Positions 4,893-62,355 of a DNA stretch of 64,000 bases are shown here, one piece after another (positions within the stretch are counted from its first letter, which is position 1; each line of letters starts with the position of its first letter). A program made the position numbers and the translations under genes. The DNA comes from Nannochloropsis salina CCMP1776. Taxonomy: Eukaryota > Sar > Eustigmatophyceae > Eustigmatales > Monodopsidaceae. Location of the stretch: the NCBI GenBank assembly GCA_004565275.1, contig SDOX01000011.1, positions 581,881-645,880 of the forward strand. The letters run 5' to 3'. The notes below the pieces were generated by a model, which ran no database searches, was not told where the DNA came from, and saw nothing but the letters and a program-made list of their open reading frames with translations.

Positions 4893-6920
4893 TCACCTTT
4901 TGCCGGCATCTCCACCGCCGAGGCTCCCCCGCGCCCCCTGAAGCGTGCGGCGCGACTTGCCTGCCGCGGGCGGATCCCCTGCTTTCAGGAAACCCAAGAG
5001 GCCCCACACCGTCGAACGGCCGCCGAAGGGCCTTGCCGCGGCCAGCAGGTTGCCCTGCTCCTCCCTCTTGTCAGACTTGGCCCCCGCTTCCCTGCCAGAC
5101 GCATAGGACCCACGAAAGGCCGGGGGCGTGGTGGCCGCGCGCGCTCGCGGAGATGAGAGGGACAACCTCCCTTCGACAGCCAGGGAGCCGGATGCTGCTC
5201 GTCGTTTCCTGTCGGAGGCATCGGGAGAAACGGGTGGCGAGTACCGGCGAAGCACGTCCTCCGCATTAATGTCCCTGCCCTCACCCTCCTCCGGGACCTC
5301 CACCTGCGTGAACTCCACTTGCGTTTGGCTGAAGATTTGTGTCTGCAATTCAATCGCCACAGCCTCTGCGCTGAGATGGCGTGAAGGATAGGTTCGTGGC
5401 GGAGGGGGCGCACCCAAGGCTCGCAGGTCGTTTGTCTTGCTCGGAGTTCCCGCCTGAATGGCTCCCCTGTGCCCCTCCGTCTTGTCCCTTTCCACGCGCC
5501 AGAGGGAAGCCTCGCCTCCCTCCTTCCCCGTCCCGCCTGCGCCGGGCGGCTCCTCTGACTGTGGCAGCCCTTGTCCAGCATCCATATTGGACCGCGAGGC
5601 TCGCCTCTCTTCTCCCTTCGTTGGGGCCTCGGCACCCTGGCCCTCTCCCTGCCCCGGGTGCTCCTCACGCGCACGTTTACGGGAGGTAGGGGTATCTTCA
5701 GCCGTGCCCCTTCGCGTTGAGCGAGTTGGGCTCACTCGGATAGCTTGGACAAGCGGTGGTAAAGGTTCTTCCTCCTCCTCCTCCTCCTCCTCCTCCTCCA
5801 TGTCTTGAGTCTCGAAATTTCGGAGCGGCGAGGCTCCAAATTGAGACGCCATTTCTCCCTCGCCCTGCGACATCCCTCCATTTCCTCCTCGTTTCGCTAT
5901 TTGTTCTTCGTGGAGGACATTCTTGTCTTGTTCCCGGGGAGACCGGACCTCTTCCACTCCGCGCAAGGGGCCTACAGCCATCGCCTTCCCCCCCACACCT
6001 TCTCCGTCACGGCCACGAAGCCGCGCTTGACCTGCGCTGGACTCAAGAGCTTGGCGCATTGACGTCGGCGCTAGATGGTCATCTTCCTGAGCGCGTTGAG
6101 GCAGGGAAGATCCAAGACACCTGGGCCGTTGCCCCTCCGGCTGGGGTCGATGCTCCTCTCCGCGGACGGTTCCGGCGACATGGCTAGCTGGCCCTCCCAT
6201 GGCCTTGGCCTCCTCCGCAATGATCCCACTGGCACCAGCGATTCGCTCCTCCCTCTTTCCCTCCTCGCAACGGAGCATATATTCGACCTCCTCCATGGTG
6301 ACGGGCCGCTTATTCCCGATGGGCTCCGGCAGAACATCATTTCCACTACTGTCAGGAAGCCGGGGTAGACCTTGATGCCGCGCCAAGAGCATCATCAGGG
6401 CATTCGTGTCCAGCTCTCGGTACAGGCTCTTTATCTCAGGTCGGTCGTTGACGCTGTGCGGGGCACCGTACGTGGACTGCCCTCGTTCCGTCGCTACCAC
6501 CGAAAACTGGGACACCTGGAGACACAGTGGCGCGAAGGAAAATACGTCCTCTCCATGCAACTCGTGCGCAAGGCAGGGGCCCGTTGCCGAGTCAAATGCC
6601 AATGGCTGGTATGAAACAAGCCATCGTTCAAGCTTGATAATGCAGGTGCCGAGACCAGCGAGGGAAATTTGCGGCATGGCCTTTTTAAATGCTAGGTGCG
6701 CATCAGGCGTTATGAAGGCTGCCAATCTGCTTTCTTTATCGCTTACCTCTAAGTATTTATGCCTGCTGGACCCGCGTATCACCTGGACTAGCTTGGGTCG
6801 AAGGTCCTGAAACCCTTCCGACATGCTGCTGCTCGCACGAGTTAGCCCTCCAGTGTCTTTACCGCCCAGGGCCGCCTTCACGGCGGGCAGAATCCACGGG
6901 TTTGACATCGTTTTGGCCAT
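4893..6920 (-). CDS. Candidate TPP1/ACD-like telomere OB-fold protein
   Basis: One uninterrupted exon of 675 codons begins with ATG at 6920. Residues 1-170 resemble the OB fold of the shelterin subunit TPP1 (ACD). A PWI motif lies at residues 8-10, followed by strand-like LVQVIRG, RLAAFITPDAH and CIIKLERW. A signature strand CLQVSQFSVVATERG sits at 133-147, and a closing helix RPEIKSLYREL at 160-170; human TPP1 has LQVDRFSLLPTE and a VQKKLYDCLEE-like helix at the same places. In this family the OB fold recruits telomerase and a following segment binds POT1. The remaining ~500 residues are disordered and charged, with an 11-Glu run (DNA 5770-5802) and a RKRAR nuclear-signal-like patch. The acidic TEL-patch residues of human TPP1 are not obviously kept. 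Homology is inferred by eye; an unrelated OB-fold protein remains possible. Confidence 0.6.
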   Translation of the reverse strand: MAKTMSNPWILPAVKAALGGKDTGGLTRASSSMSEGFQDLRPKLVQVIRGSSRHKYLEVSDKESRLAAFITPDAHLAFKKAMPQISLAGLGTCIIKLERWLVSYQPLAFDSATGPCLAHELHGEDVFSFAPLCLQVSQFSVVATERGQSTYGAPHSVNDRPEIKSLYRELDTNALMMLLARHQGLPRLPDSSGNDVLPEPIGNKRPVTMEEVEYMLRCEEGKREERIAGASGIIAEEAKAMGGPASHVAGTVRGEEHRPQPEGQRPRCLGSSLPQRAQEDDHLAPTSMRQALESSAGQARLRGRDGEGVGGKAMAVGPLRGVEEVRSPREQDKNVLHEEQIAKRGGNGGMSQGEGEMASQFGASPLRNFETQDMEEEEEEEEEEEPLPPLVQAIRVSPTRSTRRGTAEDTPTSRKRAREEHPGQGEGQGAEAPTKGEERRASRSNMDAGQGLPQSEEPPGAGGTGKEGGEASLWRVERDKTEGHRGAIQAGTPSKTNDLRALGAPPPPRTYPSRHLSAEAVAIELQTQIFSQTQVEFTQVEVPEEGEGRDINAEDVLRRYSPPVSPDASDRKRRAASGSLAVEGRLSLSSPRARAATTPPAFRGSYASGREAGAKSDKREEQGNLLAAARPFGGRSTVWGLLGFLKAGDPPAAGKSRRTLQGARGSLGGGDAGKR

Positions 6921-9085: not shown

Positions 9086-10057
9086 TTAAATCTCATCCCA
9101 AAAAACGTCAAAGCGACCGTCACAGCACAGAATGAATTCTGTGTCCTCATGGTACACAACACGATGTCTCTCTCCCGCTCCCGTGTACAGATACGACCCC
9201 GCCGATAGTTCAAAGCTCTTGCCCAGCGTTAAGTTTTCCACCCGCTTCCTGCCCTTGGTCACGAAAACATCGTGCCCGTGGGTGTGATGGTGCGTGGGCT
9301 CCACGCTTCCCCCATTGAATCGAACCACCGCGCGGGTGGGTGCGTCTCTTGTTTGTACCCATTCTGCACCCTGTACGCCCGCAACAGGTTGGAACGGATG
9401 ATTGCTCGATCCTGCAGATATGCAACAGACAGGGCAGCGACCGCCTTTGTTTTCCTCTCGTTCTGGGCCACATTCATGCGAACGCTTCTCATCTTCTTTC
9501 TCCTGCTCTTCGGCGGGAGATAAAACGGCTGGTCGCGAGGCGTCCAATTCGGCCAAGGCCGGCATGGACCCATCCAGAAAGCTCTGGACCTCGTCCGGCC
9601 ATCCTTCACACTTGTTGGCCGGTGCGGGGCCTTTGAAAGGGGTACAATGCCAAGCCTTTACTATTGCTTTTGCCATTTCAGGGGCTGTCACCATGCTTCC
9701 TAAAGCGAGAACATTGCTATTATTGACGCTTCTGCTGTTCACTGCGGCGACAACATTTTCAGCCACTGCCGCCCGGATCCCAGAAATTTTGTTAGCAGCA
9801 ATGCAGACCCCCATGCCCGTACCACAAAGTACAATACCGCATGTGCCACAATCAGCACTCACGAAATCGGACGATGAAAGTGTCGTGAGTTGCGCCACCT
9901 GTCGTCCGACATTCGCCGCTATCGTGTAGTAATCCCCAGTACCAAGGCCCCTAACGTTAAATCCTTCTTGTTGGAGGTACGGCAGGAGTGCATCATAGAG
10001 CGGAAGACCAAAAGGATCAGTTGCGATGAAAATTGTCTTATTTTGTTGTTCATTCAT
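9086..10057 (-). CDS. RpiB/LacAB-type sugar-phosphate isomerase fused to a cupin (DRT102-like)
   Basis: A single exon of 323 residues. The first in-frame ATG is at 10057; a longer reading would need a non-ATG start. Residues ~5-155 are RpiB-like: IFIATDPFGLPLYDALLPYL, then CGTCGIVLCGTGMGVCIAANK, the phosphate- and sugar-binding signature of the ribose-5-phosphate isomerase B/LacAB family. Residues ~240-323 form a cupin barrel with the metal-site histidines in HHHTHGHDVF and a second motif GAGERHRVVYHEDTEF. The same two-domain order occurs in the plant DRT102 protein, once reported as a DNA-damage toleration factor (family knowledge; true activity unclear). The linker is acidic and lysine-rich. 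The gene diverges from AP-1 mu across 729 bp. Confidence 0.85.
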   Translation of the reverse strand: MNEQQNKTIFIATDPFGLPLYDALLPYLQQEGFNVRGLGTGDYYTIAANVGRQVAQLTTLSSSDFVSADCGTCGIVLCGTGMGVCIAANKISGIRAAVAENVVAAVNSRSVNNSNVLALGSMVTAPEMAKAIVKAWHCTPFKGPAPANKCEGWPDEVQSFLDGSMPALAELDASRPAVLSPAEEQEKEDEKRSHECGPEREENKGGRCPVCCISAGSSNHPFQPVAGVQGAEWVQTRDAPTRAVVRFNGGSVEPTHHHTHGHDVFVTKGRKRVENLTLGKSFELSAGSYLYTGAGERHRVVYHEDTEFILCCDGRFDVFWDEI

Positions 10058-10786
10058 TCCTATACAACAAGAAGCAAGCTTCCTCTTGTTCAGTAAAGAG
10101 ATATGGGGAGACAGGTGAAGAGGCAAGGGAGGTTATGAGCGCAAGCCAGCACCATGCTTTGGAGCCATTGCGTCGAATCGTTGACTCTCGGTACAGATAT
10201 AATATAATGCATGTACAGAGTAGTTGTGCGTGTATTACCTTTTGAACCGCTGCGAGTCGAGACATCTAGTTGAACTTATGCTTCCAACTATCGCTGCAGG
10301 CAGTTTCTATCAGACTGCTCTCGCCATTTTTCGCTGTTCTTTCTGTTACTCTCTTAAAATGCCTCCATAAGGCTTTCCATACATGACTAATGACCATGCA
10401 AGAGCAAGGAGAATTGACACCGAGTTGAAAAAGGAGGGAGGCACTCCCTCCCCATCACCCAGGGAAACGGGAGGAGGTTGAGGTGACGAGATGATGGGAT
10501 GATGTGATGAAAGACGACCCCGTTCTCGCCCCGCGCCTCCGACTTCCGCGTCATGCATGGGTCTTGGAGCTTGGTCTTGCCGCCTCGATGTACAAGTATG
10601 GCCTGTGAGACGGTTGCCTTCCCAATTTAAGCTTCTTATATGCTTGACTCATTATTATATAAACGGCAGTAATCTGATGTGATCCTCTACACTTATAGAT
10701 TCCTCCCTAGGTTGGCAGCCCGGGCGCACGACGCCCGTCATCCGTCGCATCGCCCTGCTACTCCGTTTGCTATCTTCAGGGCAATC
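10058..10786. other. Divergent intergenic region
   Basis: This stretch separates the start codons of the RpiB-cupin gene (-) and the AP-1 mu gene (+), so it should hold both promoters. A short GATGA/GATGATG-rich tract lies near 10480-10510. No gene is recognised. Confidence 0.45.
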
Positions 10787-18872: not shown

Positions 18873-20720
18873 TCATTTCTCTTTTTCCCAACACAATACA
18901 CGAATCTTCCCCAGGCTGGGGTCGCTGCACCCTGTCACCGACCCCCCCGTTGAAAGCACGCCTTTTAGAAAGCGCAACACCTCCACGGTAATGATCTCGC
19001 CCGGGAGTAGGACGGGAATGCCGGGGGGGTAGGGGCAAACGGTCTCCGCGCTCGCTCGACCCACAACTCGCTCGTCGTTTGTGGACAGCACCTCGGAGGC
19101 TGTGAAATAGGCATCGCGCGGTCCGCATTTCAAGCTCCCCGCCGCAGCCTGCTTGCCGTCGAAAGGGGGGAAATCGGCCATAAACGACGACGCTTCTTCC
19201 CCAGCCATGTCCCGGCTCCGATCCCTCTTCCCTTTGTCTACCAATGTAGCCAATGCCTTGAAGGCAGCGACGAGGCAATCTACATCTTCCTCCTCGCTCC
19301 CAGGTCCCACCGCGAACGTCAGTGTGCGAGACGCCGGCAGCTCCGCGTACACCCCGTGCTCCTCGATCAGCACCTCGTCAGCGTCGAAGCCACTCATCCC
19401 GGTCCCCATCGTCCCGACGGTCAATCGGAGCGGATCCAAACCCACAAATGCCCCCCCCTTGGGCCGATCTGGGGGTTTCAAAATCGGAAAGGGCGTCTCC
19501 TCCAGCAGCAAGCGCTTGGCCTTTGCTGCTAGTTTCTGGGCCCGATGCAATGCTGTCCGCCCACCCCCCAGGGGGGAGCCAAGCTGCCATCGCGCCCCGT
19601 CGAGCGACGCCAGCAGCACGTAGTTGGGTGAGCTGCTCTGCACAAGTTGTAGAGCCGATCCCACAAACTCGAGCATTGCACTGTCCACCAAGGGGCCCTT
19701 GCCAGCGTGCATCATCGCACACTGACTGACTGCCGTGAGGGTCTTGTGCGTGCTCTGGACGACCAAGTCTGCACCCTGAGCGAGGGCACCTGTCATGGCT
19801 CGCGAAGCGAGCGGGCCTGCGTTGCCCGGTTCGTTTATTTCTACTTCTAGGAAAGCCAGGTGTGCTCCATGCGCCTCGTCGACTATCAGGGGGACCTTGA
19901 ACTTTGCGCACAGAAGCGCGGCTTGCTCTATATCCATGACCGCGCCGTGATAGGTCGGCGAGACGAGCAGCACGGCCGCCACCTCCGATCCAGAGGCGTG
20001 TTCTTCCAAGGCCTGCTGCAGCGCGCTTTCAATCGGGACACCGTGACAGATGTCCCATGCGGGGTCGTAGACGGGACTGAGGAAGACAGGGACGGCCCCA
20101 GCGAGAATGAGACCATTGATGGCCGATTTATGGACGTTTCGAGGGAGAAGCACCTTGCTCTGGATAGACCTTCCTGAACGCGCCGGGTGCTGCTGCCCTT
20201 CTTGTTGGTGCCTGCGCACGAGTGCAAGCAGAGCTGCCAAAACACCCGCCGTACTCCCGTTCACCAGAAACCACGTCCGCTGTGCGCCTCCGAAAGTTTC
20301 TGCTGCTAGCGTTTCGGCATCTCGAATAGGACCTTCGGGAGCAAAGAGGTTGTCGAGCTCTGGAATTTCTGGAAGATCGTACTGCCACACAGCATCCCTG
20401 TGGAGGCGCGTCCTATTCAGGGCAGTGTTGGTTTCGGCAAAAGGGCCAGGCAGCCCCACGGGGAGTCCTCGCCCCATCTTGTGCCCTGGAAAAAAGAAAG
20501 GTGCTTTGATGCGTGCTGCGGCCAAGGAGAGGGCTTCGACAATGGGAGATTTCGATTGGTCCGCCCCATGCTCTCGTGCCCACCGGCGCAACGGCCTGGC
20601 AGCGCTCTCGTAGCGCGGACGAGGACGACAAGGCGCGACGAAAGCATGGGCCTTGATGCATCCTACAAGGCCTAGAAGCAGCAATGCTGCCTCCAACCGC
20701 CCAAGGGAAAAGGCGATCAT
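18873..20720 (-). CDS. PLP-dependent Orn/Lys/Arg decarboxylase-like enzyme, probably plastid-targeted
   Basis: A single exon of 615 residues begins with ATG at 20720. The leader has a hydrophobic signal peptide followed by AHAFVAPCRPRPR, which resembles the ASAFAP-type cleavage motif of plastid proteins in algae with secondary plastids (inference). The catalytic core is a fold-type I PLP domain: KMGRGLP, TWFLVNGSTAGVLAALLA, PRNVHKSAINGLILAGA, the cofactor-pairing DEAHGAHL and the Schiff-base lysine in STHKT near residue 326. This is the wing-less type found in bacteria and plastids, which decarboxylates lysine, ornithine or arginine; the substrate cannot be read from sequence. The C-terminal domain is complete (CPYPPGIPVLLPGE). 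It lies in tandem with the hydrolase gene upstream. Confidence 0.85.
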   Translation of the reverse strand: MIAFSLGRLEAALLLLGLVGCIKAHAFVAPCRPRPRYESAARPLRRWAREHGADQSKSPIVEALSLAAARIKAPFFFPGHKMGRGLPVGLPGPFAETNTALNRTRLHRDAVWQYDLPEIPELDNLFAPEGPIRDAETLAAETFGGAQRTWFLVNGSTAGVLAALLALVRRHQQEGQQHPARSGRSIQSKVLLPRNVHKSAINGLILAGAVPVFLSPVYDPAWDICHGVPIESALQQALEEHASGSEVAAVLLVSPTYHGAVMDIEQAALLCAKFKVPLIVDEAHGAHLAFLEVEINEPGNAGPLASRAMTGALAQGADLVVQSTHKTLTAVSQCAMMHAGKGPLVDSAMLEFVGSALQLVQSSSPNYVLLASLDGARWQLGSPLGGGRTALHRAQKLAAKAKRLLLEETPFPILKPPDRPKGGAFVGLDPLRLTVGTMGTGMSGFDADEVLIEEHGVYAELPASRTLTFAVGPGSEEEDVDCLVAAFKALATLVDKGKRDRSRDMAGEEASSFMADFPPFDGKQAAAGSLKCGPRDAYFTASEVLSTNDERVVGRASAETVCPYPPGIPVLLPGEIITVEVLRFLKGVLSTGGSVTGCSDPSLGKIRVLCWEKEK

Positions 20721-21035
20721 GCCCGCTGTGAGGGTCGGAGAGGAAGGGGAGGAGCCATGAGTGCGACCACGTTGTCGAGGCGGATCCAGTTTGGGATCGA
20801 CGCTTCCTTCTTCCACCGTGCCTTTGAAAGAGCTTCCCTAAATATTGTGAGCACATCGCTATAGTCAGGTCGGCGCGGGCTCGGGACCGGGGAAAATCGA
20901 GCAATATAGAAGTCCCCCTAGTTCACGGCATTGGTAAGCTCGGCTTCCGATGTGCCAAGTCGATTTCTCGATGCCATGCCCGTTGGTGTGATACATCGAA
21001 TTCTTGAACAGGCTTATTTAACACCGCACTTTTAA
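20721..21035. other. Short intergenic region
   Basis: About 315 bp separate the decarboxylase start and the hydrolase stop, both on the minus strand. It is presumably the decarboxylase promoter; no gene is seen. Confidence 0.4.
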
Positions 21036-47773: not shown

Positions 47774-48680
47774 TGGCACAAATATTGCGCAGTCACGTTT
47801 ATGAGCGCGTCGCCTTCCACACCAGACGCGCACCGAACCCGGACTATGAAACCACACCACTTGACATCAGCCTCAGCCCACGAACGCGCAGGGAACACAA
47901 CACGCTTGCACTCAGGCAAGTGCATTATCTTGGCGATGGCAATGGAGGTCGACCGTAATCGCGTCGCACCGGCCCCGGGGCCGTAATAATGGGCACCAAG
48001 TGGGCGATGGACCGCTCCAAGGCGTGGGGTGTGCGACTTGAGGCGGGCGGCGAGGGCGGAGGGGAAATTGAAGCACTGGATGCGGCCTGCCAGAGGGTCG
48101 GCGTCGTCTTGCCCCCCCGTGCGGGGCGGTCGACAGGCGTCTTCGATGGTGTGCTCACTTGATCCACACCGGCATGAATGCATCGGCATCGCTGCGGGCG
48201 TGGGCGTGTGTTTGTATAGTCCTGGATCCTGATCTTCAGCCCCGGACAAGAGCGGAGGACAGCACTGAATCAGAGAGGGGAGAGAGATCTTCCCCGCCCG
48301 TGCTTAGCACGACGCGAAATCTGTCGCTCCCCGAGAGGAAGGTTTTACGGTCACGCACACCACATTTCATCTTTGTACGACATTGTCACACACTGTGCGC
48401 CATCGTGGTGTGGCATAGGGTGGGATGCAGGGGGCAACGGCGAGGGACCCACAAGACGCCATCGAAAGATTTTAGGCGGCGGACCTCGAGACTGTCTTCA
48501 ATGTAACGCCAGTGCGCAGAAAAACTCACTCTCTATGCACACATATCTCTCGCAGGTGTAAGGCTACCTCTCTACCTGCTGCAAAAGCCCGCTGTGCGGT
48601 CGCTGTGGGATTTGTCAAGAGGACCAATTCGCTTGTTTGCTGCTTACCGAGGTCGACCAATCAGTTGCACTTCTGTCACC
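47774..48680. other. Divergent intergenic region
   Basis: About 0.9 kb between the starts of the dehydrogenase (-) and HemA (+) genes. A minus-strand frame at 47770-48249 is open for 159 codons and Arg/Pro-rich. It could hide an upstream exon with a mitochondrial presequence for the dehydrogenase, but no donor/acceptor pair was convincing. Confidence 0.35.
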
Positions 48681-50438
48681 ATGTGCCCCCTGCGCGTGTT
48701 TTTCGCATTGCTCCAGCTTCATCTCCTATGTGTTCTCGGCTTGGGAGGGTACGCGTCTTCTGCCGGAAGCGCTCGGGCTACTGGCCGCAACTGTCCTTTC
48801 CGGGGCTGGGCAGTGGGTAAGACCTCTGCAAACACAGCCACGAGTTCATGTGCTTTCGTGGCACCATCCCCGCTTTCTCGCAGCTCAGCCGCGCTCTCAT
48901 TGACCACGAGCGAGGTTGCGGGGCCGTCATCGGAAGGGGGTTTCCGGACCTCCACGGGCCTGTTTGTGGCACCCACTACCGGACACACGGCGCACTCGTT
49001 GTCCCGGAGGCGCCGCGTCGGCCCCGCGCTGAAGCCGCTCTACGCCGCCACTGTGGCTGCCCCGACTGCCAGCATCCCTGCAGATGCGATCGCGGCTGCA
49101 GCGGAGAAGAAGGAGAAGGAGGCGAACAAGAAGAAGCGCAAGGCGACTTCCATGACCCCCTTGGAAGTGCACGTGATCGGCCTTTCTCACCACAACGCGG
49201 CGGTGGAGGTGCGGGAGAAGCTGTCCATTCCGGAGGCCCAGTGGAACGAGGCGGCCAACAAGCTCTGCGGGAGCGGGGTCATCGCAGAGGCATGCACGTT
49301 GTCGACATGCAACCGCTTTGAGATCTACTTCGCGGCCCACGACTCGTACGCCGCCTTCCACGAGGCCACCGCCTTCCTGGAGCGGCATTCGGGCCTGCCG
49401 CAGAGCGTGCTGCGGAAGAATCTATTCCTCTTGTCGGGAGAGGACGCGATCTGGCACCTGATGCGGGTCTCGGGGGGCCTGGACTCCCTGGTGGTGGGGG
49501 AGGGACAGATCCTCAGCCAGGTGAAGCAGTGTTACAACCACGGGATGGAGGAGGACGGGAAGGGTGGCAAGGTCATCTCTCGAATGTTAAACTCGGCGGT
49601 GGCGGCTGGGAAGCGCGTGCGGTCCGAGACGGGCATCAGCAAGGGGGCCGTCTCCATCTCTTCGGCGGCCGTTGAATTCTCGCAGCTCCGGTGCCCCAAG
49701 GACCTGGGCAAGCCCTTCGAGGACAGCCGCGTGGCCATTGTGGGCGCAGGCAAGATGTCGCGCCTCCTGATGATCCACATGGCCTCCCAGGGGGTAAAGG
49801 CCGTGACGCTCATGAACCGAGGGCGCGAGAGAGCGGAGACCCTGGCGGCGGAGTTCCCGGAGATGGAGGTGGCGGTGCGGCTCATGGATGACCTCTGGCC
49901 GGTCATGCATTCCCACGACGTCGTCTATACCTCCACGTCGGCGCAGGGCTGCCTTCTGACCAAGGAGAACATCCAGGCCTCGGGACTGGCCCCCGGGAAG
50001 GTGATTGTGGACATATCGGTGCCGCGCAACGTGGAGACGGAGGTGAGCGAGATCGAGGGCATGTTCGCCTACAACGTAGACCATTTGAAGGAGGTGGTGG
50101 ACCGGAATACGGCCATGCGCAAGAAGCAGATGCTGGAGGCAGAGGACCTGCTGGTGGAGGAGATGGAGAAATTTCGCTCGTGGCAGTTCTCCCTGGGGGC
50201 TGTCCCGGCTTTGATGAAGCTGCAGGAGAAGGCGGAGACGATGCGCATGGAAGAGCTGAAGAAGGCATCCAAGAAACTGAACAACCTTTCAGAAAAGGAG
50301 CTTCAGACCGTGGAACGGCTCACGAAAGGGATCGTCAACAAGCTTCTGCACGGACCCATGTCGCACTTGCGGGCTACGGAGGATCTCGAGAAAAACCTCG
50401 TGGCACTCAAGACGCTGAAAGCCGTCTTCGAGCTGTGA
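48681..50438 (+). CDS. hemA: Glutamyl-tRNA reductase, plastid
   Basis: A single exon of 585 residues; the first in-frame ATG is at 48681. The leader has a signal peptide (FFALLQLHLLCVLGLGGYA) and then a Ser/Thr/Ala-rich part with CAFVAPSPLSR, resembling the plastid-cleavage motif of stramenopile algae. The enzyme starts near residue 160: VIGLSHHNAAVEVREKL, the catalytic Cys210 in STCNRFE, GGLDSLVVGEGQILSQVK, the NADPH-binding GAGKMSRLLM, then YTSTSAQ and the dimerisation helix at the C-terminus. It reduces glutamyl-tRNA to glutamate-1-semialdehyde, the first committed step of tetrapyrrole (chlorophyll, haem) synthesis. Length and motifs are complete. Confidence 0.97.
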   Translation: MCPLRVFFALLQLHLLCVLGLGGYASSAGSARATGRNCPFRGWAVGKTSANTATSSCAFVAPSPLSRSSAALSLTTSEVAGPSSEGGFRTSTGLFVAPTTGHTAHSLSRRRRVGPALKPLYAATVAAPTASIPADAIAAAAEKKEKEANKKKRKATSMTPLEVHVIGLSHHNAAVEVREKLSIPEAQWNEAANKLCGSGVIAEACTLSTCNRFEIYFAAHDSYAAFHEATAFLERHSGLPQSVLRKNLFLLSGEDAIWHLMRVSGGLDSLVVGEGQILSQVKQCYNHGMEEDGKGGKVISRMLNSAVAAGKRVRSETGISKGAVSISSAAVEFSQLRCPKDLGKPFEDSRVAIVGAGKMSRLLMIHMASQGVKAVTLMNRGRERAETLAAEFPEMEVAVRLMDDLWPVMHSHDVVYTSTSAQGCLLTKENIQASGLAPGKVIVDISVPRNVETEVSEIEGMFAYNVDHLKEVVDRNTAMRKKQMLEAEDLLVEEMEKFRSWQFSLGAVPALMKLQEKAETMRMEELKKASKKLNNLSEKELQTVERLTKGIVNKLLHGPMSHLRATEDLEKNLVALKTLKAVFEL

Positions 50439-53697: not shown

Positions 53698-56600
53698 ATG
53701 TGGAGGCGACGGGCATCCACATCAGATACAGTGTCAAGAGCCGGGAGCCCCAGTGATGATGGAGGTCCAAAGCATGGCGATATCACTAGGCAAGCCATGT
53801 CTCCCGTGTCGCTCAATCGATATCTTTGCCAACGTGGCCTGTCGGGAACTCAAAATCGTAAAATGGCGCTTCTTAAGGGCCTCATCCCCATGGTCGCTAG
53901 CACGTTTCTCGTCTTCATCTTATTATATTGCCGGAGAGCAAATCCAGCTACCTTGTCCCCGGCTCAAGGTCAGCAGCAGAAGGCGTCTCCATCCATTTTT
54001 CGGACGCTCCAGTCGCTTTCCATGTACCCGAACCTCTTCTTTTGGAATATGAAGCAGGCCGCCGAAGAGGTGGCGCTACAGGGCGCCTTGACATTCAACG
54101 TGGCACCTGCTCGTGTGGACTCATTTTTTGATAGTTTGGATCCCCTGTCCGATGCAATGGGAGTCACGGCAGACGTGGAAATCTTCGATGATGCCTGGGA
54201 GGGTTTTTGGCTGCGTAACGGGAAGACGTGTCTTGCTCACGACACGCGCAGGCTGATGGAGGCCGTCAACTCCACCGCCTGCGATGTTGTGGTGCTGGTG
54301 GCGGGGCACGTGTACAATTTGGATCGGATGATGCACGTCTACAAGCCGACGACGGTGATCGGTAATCCGGCGGATAGACCCGTGATCAATGCCGCCAAAG
54401 CCGAACGCGCGTTCTTGGTGCACTCCGGGGCCACCTTTGATGTGCGCCACATCTTGTTTTATGAAGGTGACGGAGACCTGATTCGTAATGAAATCCGAAC
54501 GCGCTTTGGGGGAGCTATTTACATGTCCATAGGGACGAGGCTTTTCGCATTTGACTGCCTTTTCACGATTCAGCCCGTGAGGGAGTCATTCATCAATAGT
54601 GCACCTGAATTTATATTCGGAGGAGATATACTCATGGAGGGCGGGGTCATGACGCTGGTGGGCTGCTCATTTTTTGCAGTGGTGCCGGGCTTTATCAACT
54701 CAGTCAGCACCGAGCTGGGCGGAGCCGTTCTCATCCTCTCCGGGGCGGCCACTCTGACCCTGGTAGGTGAAGAATGAGGGAGTACAGGGAATAGGCACTG
54801 TTAAGCTCGCCATCCTCGTATTGTTCATCTCACGATTGGGTCTCTATGGCACGAGAACACTGACTCGCCCCCCCACTTAATTTAGGTGAACTTCATGACC
54901 ACTCAAATCTTCGCTTACAATGCGGGCGGGGGCATGCACTTGACCGTGCTTGGAGGTTCATTGGCCATGACAGCGTGCACGCACACGGCAAACCTTGTAT
55001 TTGCAGGACAAGGTCTCGTGGGTCGAAACATCTTCCTGGGAGGGGGTGTAGCAGTTTTCACGAGTATAGCGGTGACCGATACCATGGCCTTCTTATCTTT
55101 CTGGGGCGCGGGATTCAGCATCATGATCGGATCAGGCCTGGGGATATTTACAGGCTCTGCGATCACTCTCAACGCTGCCTTTGCCCAACTCGCTGGAGTG
55201 GGTGTGGCCTTCGGAGTGGGGGCAGGCATGGCCCTTTTCTACGGAACAGCATTTGCCAAAAACCTGGGCATTGCCGTGTGGCACAGTACTGGCGTCTTCA
55301 TTTTTTGTGGCGCGGGCAGGATAGCCTTGGTTGGCTGTGTCTTCGGGCATCAAAACGCGATAGCTTCATGGCAATTGCTGGGTGGGGCAGTATATCTTGG
55401 GACAGGGCAAGCCGTTTATGTAGGGTGTGCATGGGCGCGCTCACTGGGTCTGGATTTCTTTGCGGGGTTAGGCGGAGACTTGTATCTCGGGGCTGGACAG
55501 ATGGTGCTCGTGGAAGGAGTATTTACCAGCAACACGGGGATTACAGTGTTTTTGGGCCAAGGGACGGAGCTCTTTGTTGCGGCAGGGAGTGCTTTCGTGA
55601 AAAACGTCAATTTTTCTGCGAATGCCGGAATCCACTACTTGAGAGAAGGAACGTTCAGCTTCGTTGTCGGGGGACGAAAGTGTGAAGTGACCACCGAAGA
55701 GAGCACAGGCTCTCTCAATTACCGTGAGAAGGGCTACGGACTGTGCTTCAAGGGTTTCGACGGGTTGGAAAGATCGGATCCGGAGGGAAGCGTCGCGCTG
55801 GGAGTCGATGACGGCAATGTTGTTCCCGCTCTTGTGGTCGAGAAGCTGCATGGACATCAGCATTTCGGCGGCTGGCATGGCTTGACTCCATTGGATACAC
55901 CCCCCCAAGTCATGTATGTGGGCTCTAACATCACTTCGTGCGCCTTGTGTGGCTTGGAGAACGTGGAGGTCCGAGGTCCGGGAATGGAGGGGTGCCCTGC
56001 GGGGACAGAAGAGGCCTGTCCGGAGGAGTCACCTGTATCGTCAGGACGCACGTCGGCTTTGATGGAACCAGCGACGGCAGCGGCAGATGTGGCATCCGGC
56101 AGCGCAGCCACTCCAATCAAGAAGGCAAGAAAATTCTTCGGACTTGGGAGTCGTTTGCGGAAGCTTATCACTGGTGAAAAGGAAGATGATCCGATAAGAT
56201 CAACAGGCACTGACGAAATCAAATCGAGTCATCACTACGACCCCGATGCTCTTCTTCCTGACTCCTATGTGGTTGTAGCAGACCTGATGCTGGAGTGCCA
56301 GACCAACGGTGTGGAGGCCGGCTGTGGTATTTTATTGGAGACGTTGCAGGAAATTGTGGAGTTGTCTTGGCTTAAAGGGCTGGAAGATGAAGCAAGGGTG
56401 CATGTGGCCAAGTTTAAGTCTTCCGATAGCTTGCGTGAAATGCTAGGGATACCCTCAATGGATGGAGTGGAACCCTCGTCGACGGATACCAATATTCCGC
56501 AGAGCAAGCGTAGCAGCTCCGGAAATCTCTCTGAGCCGTCCTGCAATGGTCACGAGGCCTTCGTGGCGTACGCCCACACCTCAGACAAGAGCACCTACGA

Positions 56601-58029
56601 AAGCCTCAAGGCTTCTCTTTCATCGGCTACCGAAAGCGCCACCATCGGATCGGGCAGCGGTAGCACTTTAAGCGCGGACCTCGCCCTTCTCCTTTTAAGC
56701 CAGCAGCCTACCATCTGCACGGCGAACTTCACGCTACAGGACAGTTTCATGGTGCCGGCACCTTTGGCGAAGTTCTCTTCTACAAGCACCGGTAGCAGCT
56801 CCGGCGCGACTGCCAGCAACCGGGCAAAGACAGGTTTCCAAGGCCTCACCCTGCCCCGCGTGTGGATTAACATCACCAGTCCGGTCATAACTCCACGAAA
56901 AATCTATGATATAGTCATATCGGAATTTGATGACAAGGACATCGTGGGGTTGCAGCTTATGGCCAAGCCCTCCAAAGACAAGAAGAAGTCGCTGTTCTTC
57001 AGCTCCACCCCTCGGCTTCTTCACACCTTTCAGCCATTTGATTCCGACAAGCACAATCAGACGTGGGCATGGCGAGTCTCTCCCTTGGTCTTTCAAGGCA
57101 TGGCACCCGGCCCGTATTTCCTTAAGGCCTTCGACGTTCTTGAGCCCAAGCGCTTCGTCCTCAGCCAAGCTTTTCAGGTGGAGAGATCTGCCGCGGAACC
57201 GCGACAAGGCGCAGGAAAGGGCGCTGCGTCGTCTTTGTTTCCCATGAAGGCGGAGCGCATCCTCCACCGTCTCGATCCTCAAAATTCCCCAACCGACGCG
57301 CACCTGGGGGAAGAACCTGAACCCAAGACAGATCGAGAGACTCCGGTCCTAGAGAGCGAATCTAGACAGAAACACCGGCCGCGCCAGCTCCTCGACGAAG
57401 ACAGTAGTGGTAGAGACCTTATCTCTATGATGGCCACCTTGTTGGCAACGCCGGAGGATACGTCGCTCATGGACGAGCTGTGGAAGGCCCTGCTCGCCTT
57501 TCCAGCTTCGCAGACAGCCCTCGCCGACGAAGGACTGGCTCGCAAACTATTGGAGCGAGCACCGGTTCTCCAGACCGCCCCATCCGTCGTGGCTCTCGAT
57601 GCGGATGACGGGGCTGGGTGGAAAGATCCGGGTCAGGTGCAGGCGGCCCTTGGCAAGGCGATCGCCGATTTTGTTGATCTCTCCGTGTCAGTCCTCCGGC
57701 AGCAACGAGGGCGTGGGGACAGACCGAAGGGAATGGGGAAAGCCGACGTGTTCGATGGGCGAGAGGATCCCAATGATAACTGGCCAGCGAGGATCTTGGG
57801 AGGCTTGACACCCGAGGAGGAGGCTTTGGCGGCCCGTGTGGGCCGTGACGGGGATCTGGAGGCTATGGGCGAGCTCATGGACACTCAGGCTGCCCACCGC
57901 TTCGGCGGGATGACCATGGCGAGACTGAAAGCCATGGAATTGGGGGACGAATTTAAGGGCGGGTTAGCATCAGAGATTTTCCGGGACTTAATCGACGATC
58001 CCGAGATATGGCAAGAATTAGAGGCCTGA
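53698..58029 (+). CDS. Large type II membrane protein with 30-residue beta-solenoid repeats
   Basis: Exons 53698-54762 and 54886-58029 (GTAGGT donor, AATTTAG acceptor, phase 0) give 1402 residues. One membrane span lies at ~59-78 (GLIPMVASTFLVFILLYC), so the bulk is probably lumenal or extracellular. Residues ~195-355 resemble a pectate-lyase-like right-handed beta-helix (VVLVAGHVYNLDRMM, PVINAAKAERAFLVHSGAT). Residues 379-618 are eight exact 30-residue repeats without gaps, e.g. GMALFYGTAFAKNLGIAVWH and GQAVYVGCAWARSLGLDFF, each ending near GxG. A strand-rich, Ser/Thr-rich middle part follows, then a C-terminal helical region (DELWKALLAFPASQTALAD). No catalytic motif was seen. A structural or cell-surface role, such as wall polysaccharide binding, is inference only. 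Confidence 0.82.
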
Positions 58030-59579: not shown

Positions 59580-62355
59580 TCATTCGTCGAGCGTCTCAAG
59601 AGCAAGACGATTCCAGAGGGAGGACACCAGAGAGGCGTCCGCCATGTCGTCCCGGTCTAGGTAGGAAAGAACCTCCAGGGAATTTTGTTTGTTGACGCGA
59701 GACCGGGGACCAAAGACAGAGAGCAAGAATTCGTCTTTGCGGCCTGCCCCTCTTCCTTTCGGCGTCGGCCTGGCGGGCTTGCCAGGCACCGGAATATCAG
59801 GCGTCCCGTCTCCTACGTTCTTGCGCTTGCTCCGGTGTTGAACAGGCGTGAGCGTGGTATCAGGACTTTTCACGGTAAAAATTACATTGCTTGTTCCTCG
59901 GCTCGTTATCCCTGTTCCTATCGACGGCCTTGGCCGACGCGCCATGTGTACATCCAGCTCTGTGGCCAAGCTCGTCGACGAGAAGGCAGCCTCGTAGAAC
60001 TCCCTTTCTTGCTCAGATGTCCTTACGACGTACGGCCTAGAACCAATCTTGACACCTGCATCCAAATCAAGGCCCCTGAGAGACGAGGGCGACGCGGCCA
60101 CAGAGTTCATATCCCCATCCAGACTGCTTCCCCCTTGCATTCGGCCGGCGCTACCGGTGCTCTTTCGCCTCTTTTTCTCCATGATCTTATCAACTGCCTC
60201 AGCCCTCTCCGCTTCACATTCAGCAACATTCGCGCAATTTTGACATTTACAGGAAGGTTGGCAGGTAAAGCCTCCTCGAAAGCACTCGCAATATAGTTTG
60301 AGACAGCGGGATTTCTTGCAGCAGCAGCTGCCTGATGAGGGAGTCCCTTCTGATCTCCTTTCGCAGTAGGAATTCTTCGATCCAGTGGTGGGAGTCTGGT
60401 ATTGCATACCCGCGTCCAAAACGCGGACTGGCTCGGAGGCAGGGGCACCAGCGCTAAAATTCTGGATGCCTGAGAAAGGTTCTTGGGTGGAGGGCATTAG
60501 GACACGAGGCGCGCTCAGGCAAGGGCGAGAGGCATTCCCTTTCTTGCGGTCCGAAGAGAAAACAGAGGGACTCTGAGACAGGGTGACCATGGCCATGGCC
60601 TCCAGGACAGGAGATCCAGGAGCGAAGCCCCCTCGAGAGGCAGTGGTTGTCCGCGGGCTCTGTGGCGGGGCCATGCAGAAGTTGGTGTGGGGGGGGCTGG
60701 AGGAGGCTTCGCGGGAGGGAATCATGGCCGCGATGGCTTCCAGGAGGGAGGGATCAGCAGACAGGGAGTGCTGAGGGGCCTTCTTTTTGACTCGAACTTG
60801 GATGCCACCCCAGTTGGAACCGCCTGGGGAGAAAGGGACGCAAAAACAAGTCAAAGAAGACACTCGTGCACATCGGTCATCGCGCTCTCTCTGAGCGACA
60901 TGACGCACATGATTTCCAGGCCCCATTGCTATTTGCCCCAAACCCCGTGCTTACCATGCTTGTTCATTGGGATCGCTTTCACCTGCGGGGGCGGTGGAGG
61001 ATTTTGGCGTGCGCCCCATAGCTTTATCCCAGTCGTCTCATTCAGCAGCACTTCCGCGGCCTGAAGCCGCTGCTCCTCATCATCCTTGTTTTCTTGCTTC
61101 TGCCCCGACACAGAGATTGCGCCATCCTCTTGTCCCGCACACCCCTTCCAATGCCCCCCGGGCTCAATTTCGCATTTGTCACCATTAGGTTTGCTCTTGT
61201 TCAGGTTGCTCTGAATAGGGGTGCCTCGGTTCTCGGTGCTGTTCAAGTCGCAGCTATCAGTCCTCCCGTTCTTGCAAGCAAAATCATTCTCATTGATACT
61301 CTCAGCACCTCTACCAGTAGAAGAGGCCAAGAAGCCCTCGTAGTCTTCGGCCTGCTGCTTATAAGGTGACCGGGACACGAAAAAGTGGGAGTCTCTCGTG
61401 ATGCTCCCCTGTAAGGCCGCCGCAGGACTCGCAGGCGGGGCGGCTCCCGGCCCCCCCCTCGCCACACGTTGCGTCTCTGAGTCCAAAGAAAGCCAGACAC
61501 AGGAAGCTTTTTCATCAGATGTTCCCGCGAAATCAAGCTTCTTGCTGTATGCTTTTTTCTTAGTCTCTCTTTCACCAATTGTCACTCCTGTTGCATCACG
61601 GTGGATCACCTTGGCTGTCGTAGCCTCATGGACATGCCTATTTAGAGTGTCCTTCTCACTGAGATTGGTGATGCTCGAGGACTGCGACATGGAAGAGAAA
61701 AAACTGGGCATGGACGGGGGATGTTGGCTGCTCTGACAGTCATACGAGTGCGAGGAGAGGCTTTGCGGGGCGGGGGATTGGCCGGGCAAGGGAGACCATG
61801 AGAACTGACTGGGGCTGAAAAACCTGAATATTCAGGGTTGAAGGATGAATAAAGGAAGTACAAAAATTATGTGGAGGATGCTACGTTTATATGAGTCGCA
61901 AACAATCGAGAAAGGATTCGAAATCCGGTCTGTCCGAGAGACGACCGCGAGTTGGTGACGCAAATCAGAAGAGAAGAATGAAACGACACCAAGCTCGCGG
62001 ACCGTAAAAGTTGCTCACCGGTTATAGTTGACAGACGGACTACCATGGCCGAGGCCTTGAGGTGTGGGGAAGCCCATTAGATATTCCCGTCCTGCTGGGC
62101 CCCGTGGCGTGAGGCAGGAGGACCCTTTCTTCGCAAGTCCTGGAGAATTGGTTATTTCCCACAGCGCCTTGGCTGAGGTCAGCCAGAAGTGTGAGGGATA
62201 GTGAGAGGTTGTTATGGACAGTAAATTATGCCATGAGGTATGCGAGCAGCTCCTGCAAGTTTTCAAATTGTGACAGATCGACTTCCGTCCACACTGTCGC
62301 ACTTACCTGCTTCGGATTCATCCTCTAAAGAGGGAGACTGACGTGCAGCCGCCAT
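59580..62355 (-). CDS. CXC-domain (tesmin/TSO1/LIN54-like) DNA-binding protein
   Basis: Four exons, 62355-62307, 62172-62019, 61823-60955 and 60823-59580, join in consistent phase (1, 2, 1) to 771 residues. The start MAAARQSPSLEDESEA leads into ALWEITNSPGLAKKG, a conserved-looking short motif, then ~400 Ser/Pro-rich residues. A cysteine-rich CXC motif lies at ~515-555: CCCKKSRCLKLYCECFRGG followed by CQPSCKCQNC. LIN54/TSO1 proteins carry two such motifs that read CHR promoter elements through the Tyr in KLYC; here only one is visible. The C-terminal ~35 residues (LEVLSYLDRDDMADASLVSS then LWNRLALE) look like the core of an F-box. Likely a nuclear regulator of cell-cycle genes, by family analogy. 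Confidence 0.85.

Follow-up and report, generated by a model that had tools for sequence, protein, structure and literature searches.

The window, meaning the whole 64,000-nucleotide stretch of Nannochloropsis salina CCMP1776 DNA analysed here, carries on its minus strand an uninterrupted open reading frame for a candidate telomere protein of the TPP1/TEBP-beta type (Table 1). Stops are found in frame upstream of its ATG. Codon usage was compared with that of eight Pfam-supported genes of the window, with all six frames scored over successive 75-codon segments. Frame 0 ranked first in nine of the nine segments, the low-complexity tail included, with a narrow lead over residues 526-600 (0.08 versus 0.06). 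Codon usage supports coding over the full length of the 675-residue frame.

The N-terminal region of the predicted protein comprises a candidate OB domain with a closing helix. The motifs singled out by the initial annotation are all present: the PWI start at residues 8-10, the strand sequence LQVSQFSVVATE at residues 134-145 (human TPP1 counterpart LQVDRFSLLPTE), the LY-containing segment IKSLYREL at residues 163-170 (SLYREL at 165-170; KKLYDCL in human TPP1) and a run of 11 glutamates at residues 375-385. The domain is followed by a tail of ~490 residues, much of it of low complexity, that has no Pfam match either within the whole protein or when residues 441-675 are scanned alone. A cluster of SQ/TQ sites in this tail may represent putative ATM/ATR-type sites, and two basic stretches, at residues 414-418 and at residues 571-574, resemble nuclear signals.

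Table 1 Features of the candidate TPP1-type gene and its predicted product.
Feature	Window positions	Strand	Basis or remark
Candidate TPP1/TEBP-beta-type telomere protein ORF, uninterrupted	4893..6920	minus	675 aa, ATG to TGA
Candidate TPP1-type OB domain and closing helix, residues 1-185	6366..6920	minus	PF10341 match, profile comparison
PF10341-matching stretch, residues 7-99 (PWI start to TCIIKLER)	6624..6902	minus	Pfam scan
PWI start, residues 8-10 (P8 W9 I10)	6891..6899	minus	common to human TPP1 RPWIREL and Est3 QPWIKAL
VSD, residues 59-61			motif inspection
Residues 81-84 (A M P Q)	6669..6680	minus	aligned with human TEL-patch E168/E169/K170/E171
Strand and closing helix, residues 130-167	6420..6533	minus	aligned to human TPP1 AEFYLQV...KKLY
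11 consecutive Glu, residues 375-385, low-complexity tail	5766..5798	minus	sequence
SQ/TQ-site cluster TQIFSQTQVEFTQ, residues 527-539, tail	5304..5342	minus	sequence

Several other genes of the window were noted. Two overlapping plus-strand frames at 713-2448 contain an F-box-like match (below cut-off) together with FIST_N and FIST_C domains, a combination that we take to resemble FBXO22; they are perhaps one FBXO22-like gene split by an intron or a frameshift. A single minus-strand frame at 9086-10126 combines a LacAB_rpiB (ribose/galactose isomerase) domain with a C-terminal cupin domain. An Orn/Lys/Arg decarboxylase is encoded at 18873-20816 (minus strand) and a glutamyl-tRNA reductase at 48594-50438 (plus strand). 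Both enzymes have an AFVAP motif downstream of a hydrophobic stretch (AHAFVAPC and SSCAFVAPS, respectively). Presumably these motifs are of the ASAFAP plastid-targeting type of algae with red secondary plastids, and their sequence suggests ochrophyte-type plastid targeting of the two enzymes. The minus-strand gene at 59580-60941 has a Tesmin/TSO1-type CXC domain and a C-terminal F-box-like match just below cut-off, and a plus-strand frame of 1047 aa at 54886-58029 has no Pfam match at E 0.01.

The candidate protein was compared with 24,736 Pfam families, among which the TPP1 family PF10341 has a curated cut-off of 26.5 bits. The full 675 residues gave no match. PF10341 was the sole family matched in six of nine N-terminal pieces, at 12.0-13.9 bits and E values of 0.049-0.19, below the cut-off: piece 1-105 scored highest (13.9 bits, E 0.049), and pieces 1-150, 1-176, 1-192, 1-201 and 7-186 scored 12.0-12.8 bits (E 0.11-0.19). 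The register was constant in all six matches, with residues 7-99 placed on profile positions 2-102. The remaining pieces (36-185, 46-176 and 104-215), all devoid of the PWI start, matched no family. As yardsticks, human TPP1 scores 111.7 bits against PF10341, Est3 167.8 and Oxytricha TEBP-beta 14.7, so that an accepted homologue also falls below the cut-off. PF10341 was matched neither by the ten controls derived from the domain (nine shuffles and its reversal) nor by ten pieces of 191-196 aa taken from other proteins of the window. Unrelated families were matched by two of the nine shuffles and five of the ten control pieces, at E values of 0.0037-0.32; for the control pieces, which matches count as chance is our judgement. 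Since controls yield chance matches of similar or better E value, the PF10341 E value alone proves little; the match nevertheless counts because the family had been named beforehand and the register is constant. Nothing was returned by scans for Rfam families, tRNAs and NCBIfam families, and none of the three PDB sequences listed for residues 1-176 was a credible match, the best (E 0.042) being a designed repeat protein.

Alignment to individual family members gave a further measure of similarity. The local alignment score of the domain was reached by 38 of 1,000 shuffles for human TPP1, 569 for Est3 and five for TEBP-beta; for end-to-end alignment the corresponding counts were 15, 34 and five. 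Decoy pieces reached the score of the domain in six of 187 cases against human TPP1 and in none of 187 against TEBP-beta. In tests with 20,000 shuffles each, for which the halves and targets were picked after the 1,000-shuffle result, residues 1-104 attained a score against TEBP-beta that was reached by 31 shuffles, and residues 105-185 scored against the corresponding half of human TPP1 at a level reached by 86 (316 against the whole human OB domain). Residues 1-104 did not match human TPP1 (10,859 of 20,000 shuffles reached the score). For the whole domain the counts were 68 against TEBP-beta and 755 against human TPP1. BLASTP between TEBP-beta and the algal protein, a single comparison, returned an E value of 5e-4.

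A profile was built from human TPP1, Est3 and TEBP-beta, all matched to PDB chains, with the algal protein left out; it aligned with the candidate domain across 93 columns with a score of 19.8. None of 200 shuffles reached this score, nor did any of 96 decoys, which were overlapping pieces cut from 16 other ORFs of the window (best decoy 16.8); the probability that hhalign itself assigns to the alignment is 1.9% (P 0.025). Using 60 shuffles per comparison, the profile of human TPP1 and TEBP-beta gave z 5.3 for the domain (0/60 shuffles), and that of Est3 and TEBP-beta, with human TPP1 left out, z 3.0; the profile of human TPP1 and Est3 gave no signal (z -0.2). As single queries, TEBP-beta (z 3.7) and human TPP1 (z 3.0) found the domain, and Est3 showed no significant similarity to it (z 0.2). 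When accepted members were left out in turn, human TPP1 was recovered at z 6.3, Est3 at 1.2 and TEBP-beta at 2.2. An HMM built from a hand alignment of the same three members assigned the domain 2.2 bits. Of 2,000 shuffles 15 did at least as well, as did four of 152 scored open-frame pieces (best 6.4); these decoys came from every long open frame in the window, the candidate ORF itself included. This hand-aligned HMM is non-discriminating.

An OB-fold protein of another kind, akin to POT1, CST, RPA or RMI proteins, was weighed against these results and appears very improbable. OB folds diverge past recognition, and the Pfam model of the true family could be as insensitive as PF10341. The reverse control of the three-member profile gave z values of -1.6 for POT1 OB1, -1.4 for RPA32 and 1.3 for RPA70, and 1.9 for TEN1, so that a different OB protein scores comparably to two of the left-out true members. 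Against this, no other OB family of Pfam, those of the POT1, CST and RPA type included, matches the candidate domain, although POT1, TEN1, RPA32 and RPA70 sequences each match their own or related models, and as single queries POT1 OB1 (z -0.1), TEN1 (0.7), RPA32 (-0.7) and RPA70 (0.0) do not find it. The TEBP-beta model of Pfam, PF07404 (TEBP_beta), also had no match in the whole protein or its N-terminal pieces at E values up to 10.

Chance resemblance is a rather unlikely explanation, though a more serious one. On this view the gene product is unrelated to TPP1, has a long tail of low complexity and shares PWI, VSD and LQVxxFS with TPP1 at its N-terminus by accident. The Pfam E values of 0.05-0.19 lie within the range that unrelated pieces and shuffles reach for some family, and a look-elsewhere effect has to be allowed for, given that the resemblance was noticed among 64 kb of sequence. 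The non-discriminating HMM and the AlphaFold models are compatible with chance as well: predicted from a single sequence with very low confidence, residues 1-185 (pLDDT 30.7) were modelled without strands, and residues 40-178 reached pLDDT 32.6. Matches in the controls, however, fall on random families, whereas those of the candidate domain fall in constant register on the family that had been named. Both halves of the domain match separately and collinearly, and no shuffle or decoy reached the score of the three-member profile. Viral contigs and genome contigs, from collections not of eukaryotes, contained no relatives of the protein.

Taken together, the sequence comparisons indicate, with a probability of roughly 0.7, that the gene encodes a divergent protein of the TPP1/TEBP-beta family rather than a new kind of system. 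The TPP1-type assignment of the initial annotation is therefore upheld in part: PF10341 is the sole Pfam match and the three-member profile surpasses its controls, but the match stays below the cut-off and the hand-aligned HMM does not discriminate.

The TEL patch was mapped by our reading of the alignments, ungapped from human T158 (algal T71) for the residues up to L183; the human residue numbers and the membership of the patch are those we assume for human TPP1. Human E168, E169 and E171 align with A81, M82 and Q84, which are non-acidic and directly preceded by K79 and K80. In the ungapped alignment, R180 and L183 are opposite C93 and K96. Human L212 aligns with V142 and E215 with E145, the only acidic residue of the patch that is matched. 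The earlier statement that the acidic TEL-patch residues do not align is thus mostly right, holding for E168, E169 and E171 and failing for E215. Related proteins differ at this site as well: E74 and K75 of Tpz1 sit at the positions of human E168 and E169, and contacts are described as extensively rewired between species (PMC13419711); H. polymorpha Est3 has a positive charge in its TEL region (PMC7338525). Since Tpz1 and H. polymorpha Est3 differ too, a changed TEL patch is compatible with family membership. An acidic TEL patch is a feature of human TPP1 and not of the family at large, and the non-acidic algal patch is no oddity.

By analogy to human TPP1, Tpz1, Est3 and p50, the candidate OB domain (residues ~1-185) would be a protein-binding module, its fold, partners and telomeric role being predicted. 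Its TEL-patch face, together with the short segment ahead of PWI, would form the docking surface for TERT. Such docking would recruit or activate telomerase at chromosome ends. A peptide motif in the tail would bind a POT1-type protein seated on the single-stranded overhang; the partner peptides of Tpz1, TEBP-beta and TPP1 occupy the OB3 groove of POT1 in different ways, as summarized in part of PMC9333443. Within the TPP1 family, the protein could instead belong with Est3 and p50 as a holoenzyme subunit stably partnered with TERT, and not be a POT1-bound, shelterin-type TPP1. The same OB family fills both roles, and Est3 and p50 reside in the telomerase holoenzyme (passages of PMC7619062 and PMC13419711). 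We consider this variant quite unlikely, as the matches fall to human TPP1 and TEBP-beta rather than to Est3 and the long tail resembles that of the TPP1-domain proteins described in sections of PMC4122937, Est3 being of only 181 aa.

A TPP1-like protein outside the opisthokonts is not new, because ciliates already have TEBP-beta and p50. Beyond animals and fungi, extracts of PMC4122937 and PMC13419711 mention TEBP-beta of Oxytricha/Stylonychia, p50 of Tetrahymena and a TPP1-domain match in Acanthamoeba. Of 151 UniProt sequences with a TPP1 domain (release 2013_12), three were outside the opisthokonts, two from Oxytricha and one from Acanthamoeba (PMC4122937, in the portion cited here). Among the matches listed from the open-licence literature there was no report of a TPP1-like protein in stramenopiles, and those listed on Nannochloropsis telomeres had no TPP1 in the title or the start of the abstract.

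We put about even odds on the further proposal that the TPP1 of ochrophyte algae was inherited vertically and has a TEL patch that is rewired and non-acidic. If true, this proposal, together with ciliate TEBP-beta and p50, would mean that a TERT-docking TPP1 existed by the time opisthokonts and SAR diverged. Vertical inheritance would run against the suggestion, made in a passage of PMC4122937, that, barring very divergent homologues, ancestral eukaryotes may have lacked TPP1 and some ciliates gained it by horizontal transfer. A real stramenopile TPP1 would be just such a very divergent homologue as that passage foresees. It would help to date the module by which animals and fungi bring telomerase to chromosome ends, and it would open the question to testing in relatives of the ciliates. 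TTAGGG telomeres are reported in eustigmatophyte algae (PMC8570151, in an excerpt); if the host is a eustigmatophyte, a TPP1 with a differing TERT contact would be working on a telomeric repeat of the human type. The algal sequence could also serve as a starting query in looking for TPP1 among diatoms, brown algae and oomycetes.

Compared with known systems, the algal domain has in common with the OB domain of human TPP1 (ACD; PDB 2I46, PF10341) the PWI start, the VSD strand, the LQVxxFSxxxTE strand and the LY-containing closing helix. The two are 25% identical in the MAFFT alignment, in which human R220 of the TELR region is opposite algal G152, and the hhalign alignment shows 17 extra residues before strand 5 of the algal protein. 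Oxytricha nova TEBP-beta (PDB 1OTC/1JB7, PF07404) is the best match of the N-terminal half, its segments VTDGYFFVAPYFTKEAV...FPNVNI...VIVINNW aligning against algal VSDKESRLAAFITPDAH...MPQISL...CIIKLERW; unlike the algal protein, the TEBP-beta stretch compared lacks PWI. Fission yeast Tpz1 and Tetrahymena p50 are likened to the algal protein by function class only. Saccharomyces Est3 (PDB 2M9V, 9SWN) has the PWI start in common and differs in having no long tail, in contrast to the 675-residue algal protein. A TPP1 domain is usually N-terminal and often followed by more than 200 domain-free residues, as noted in part of PMC4122937, and the algal layout of an N-terminal domain with a domain-free tail fits this typical architecture of TPP1-domain proteins.
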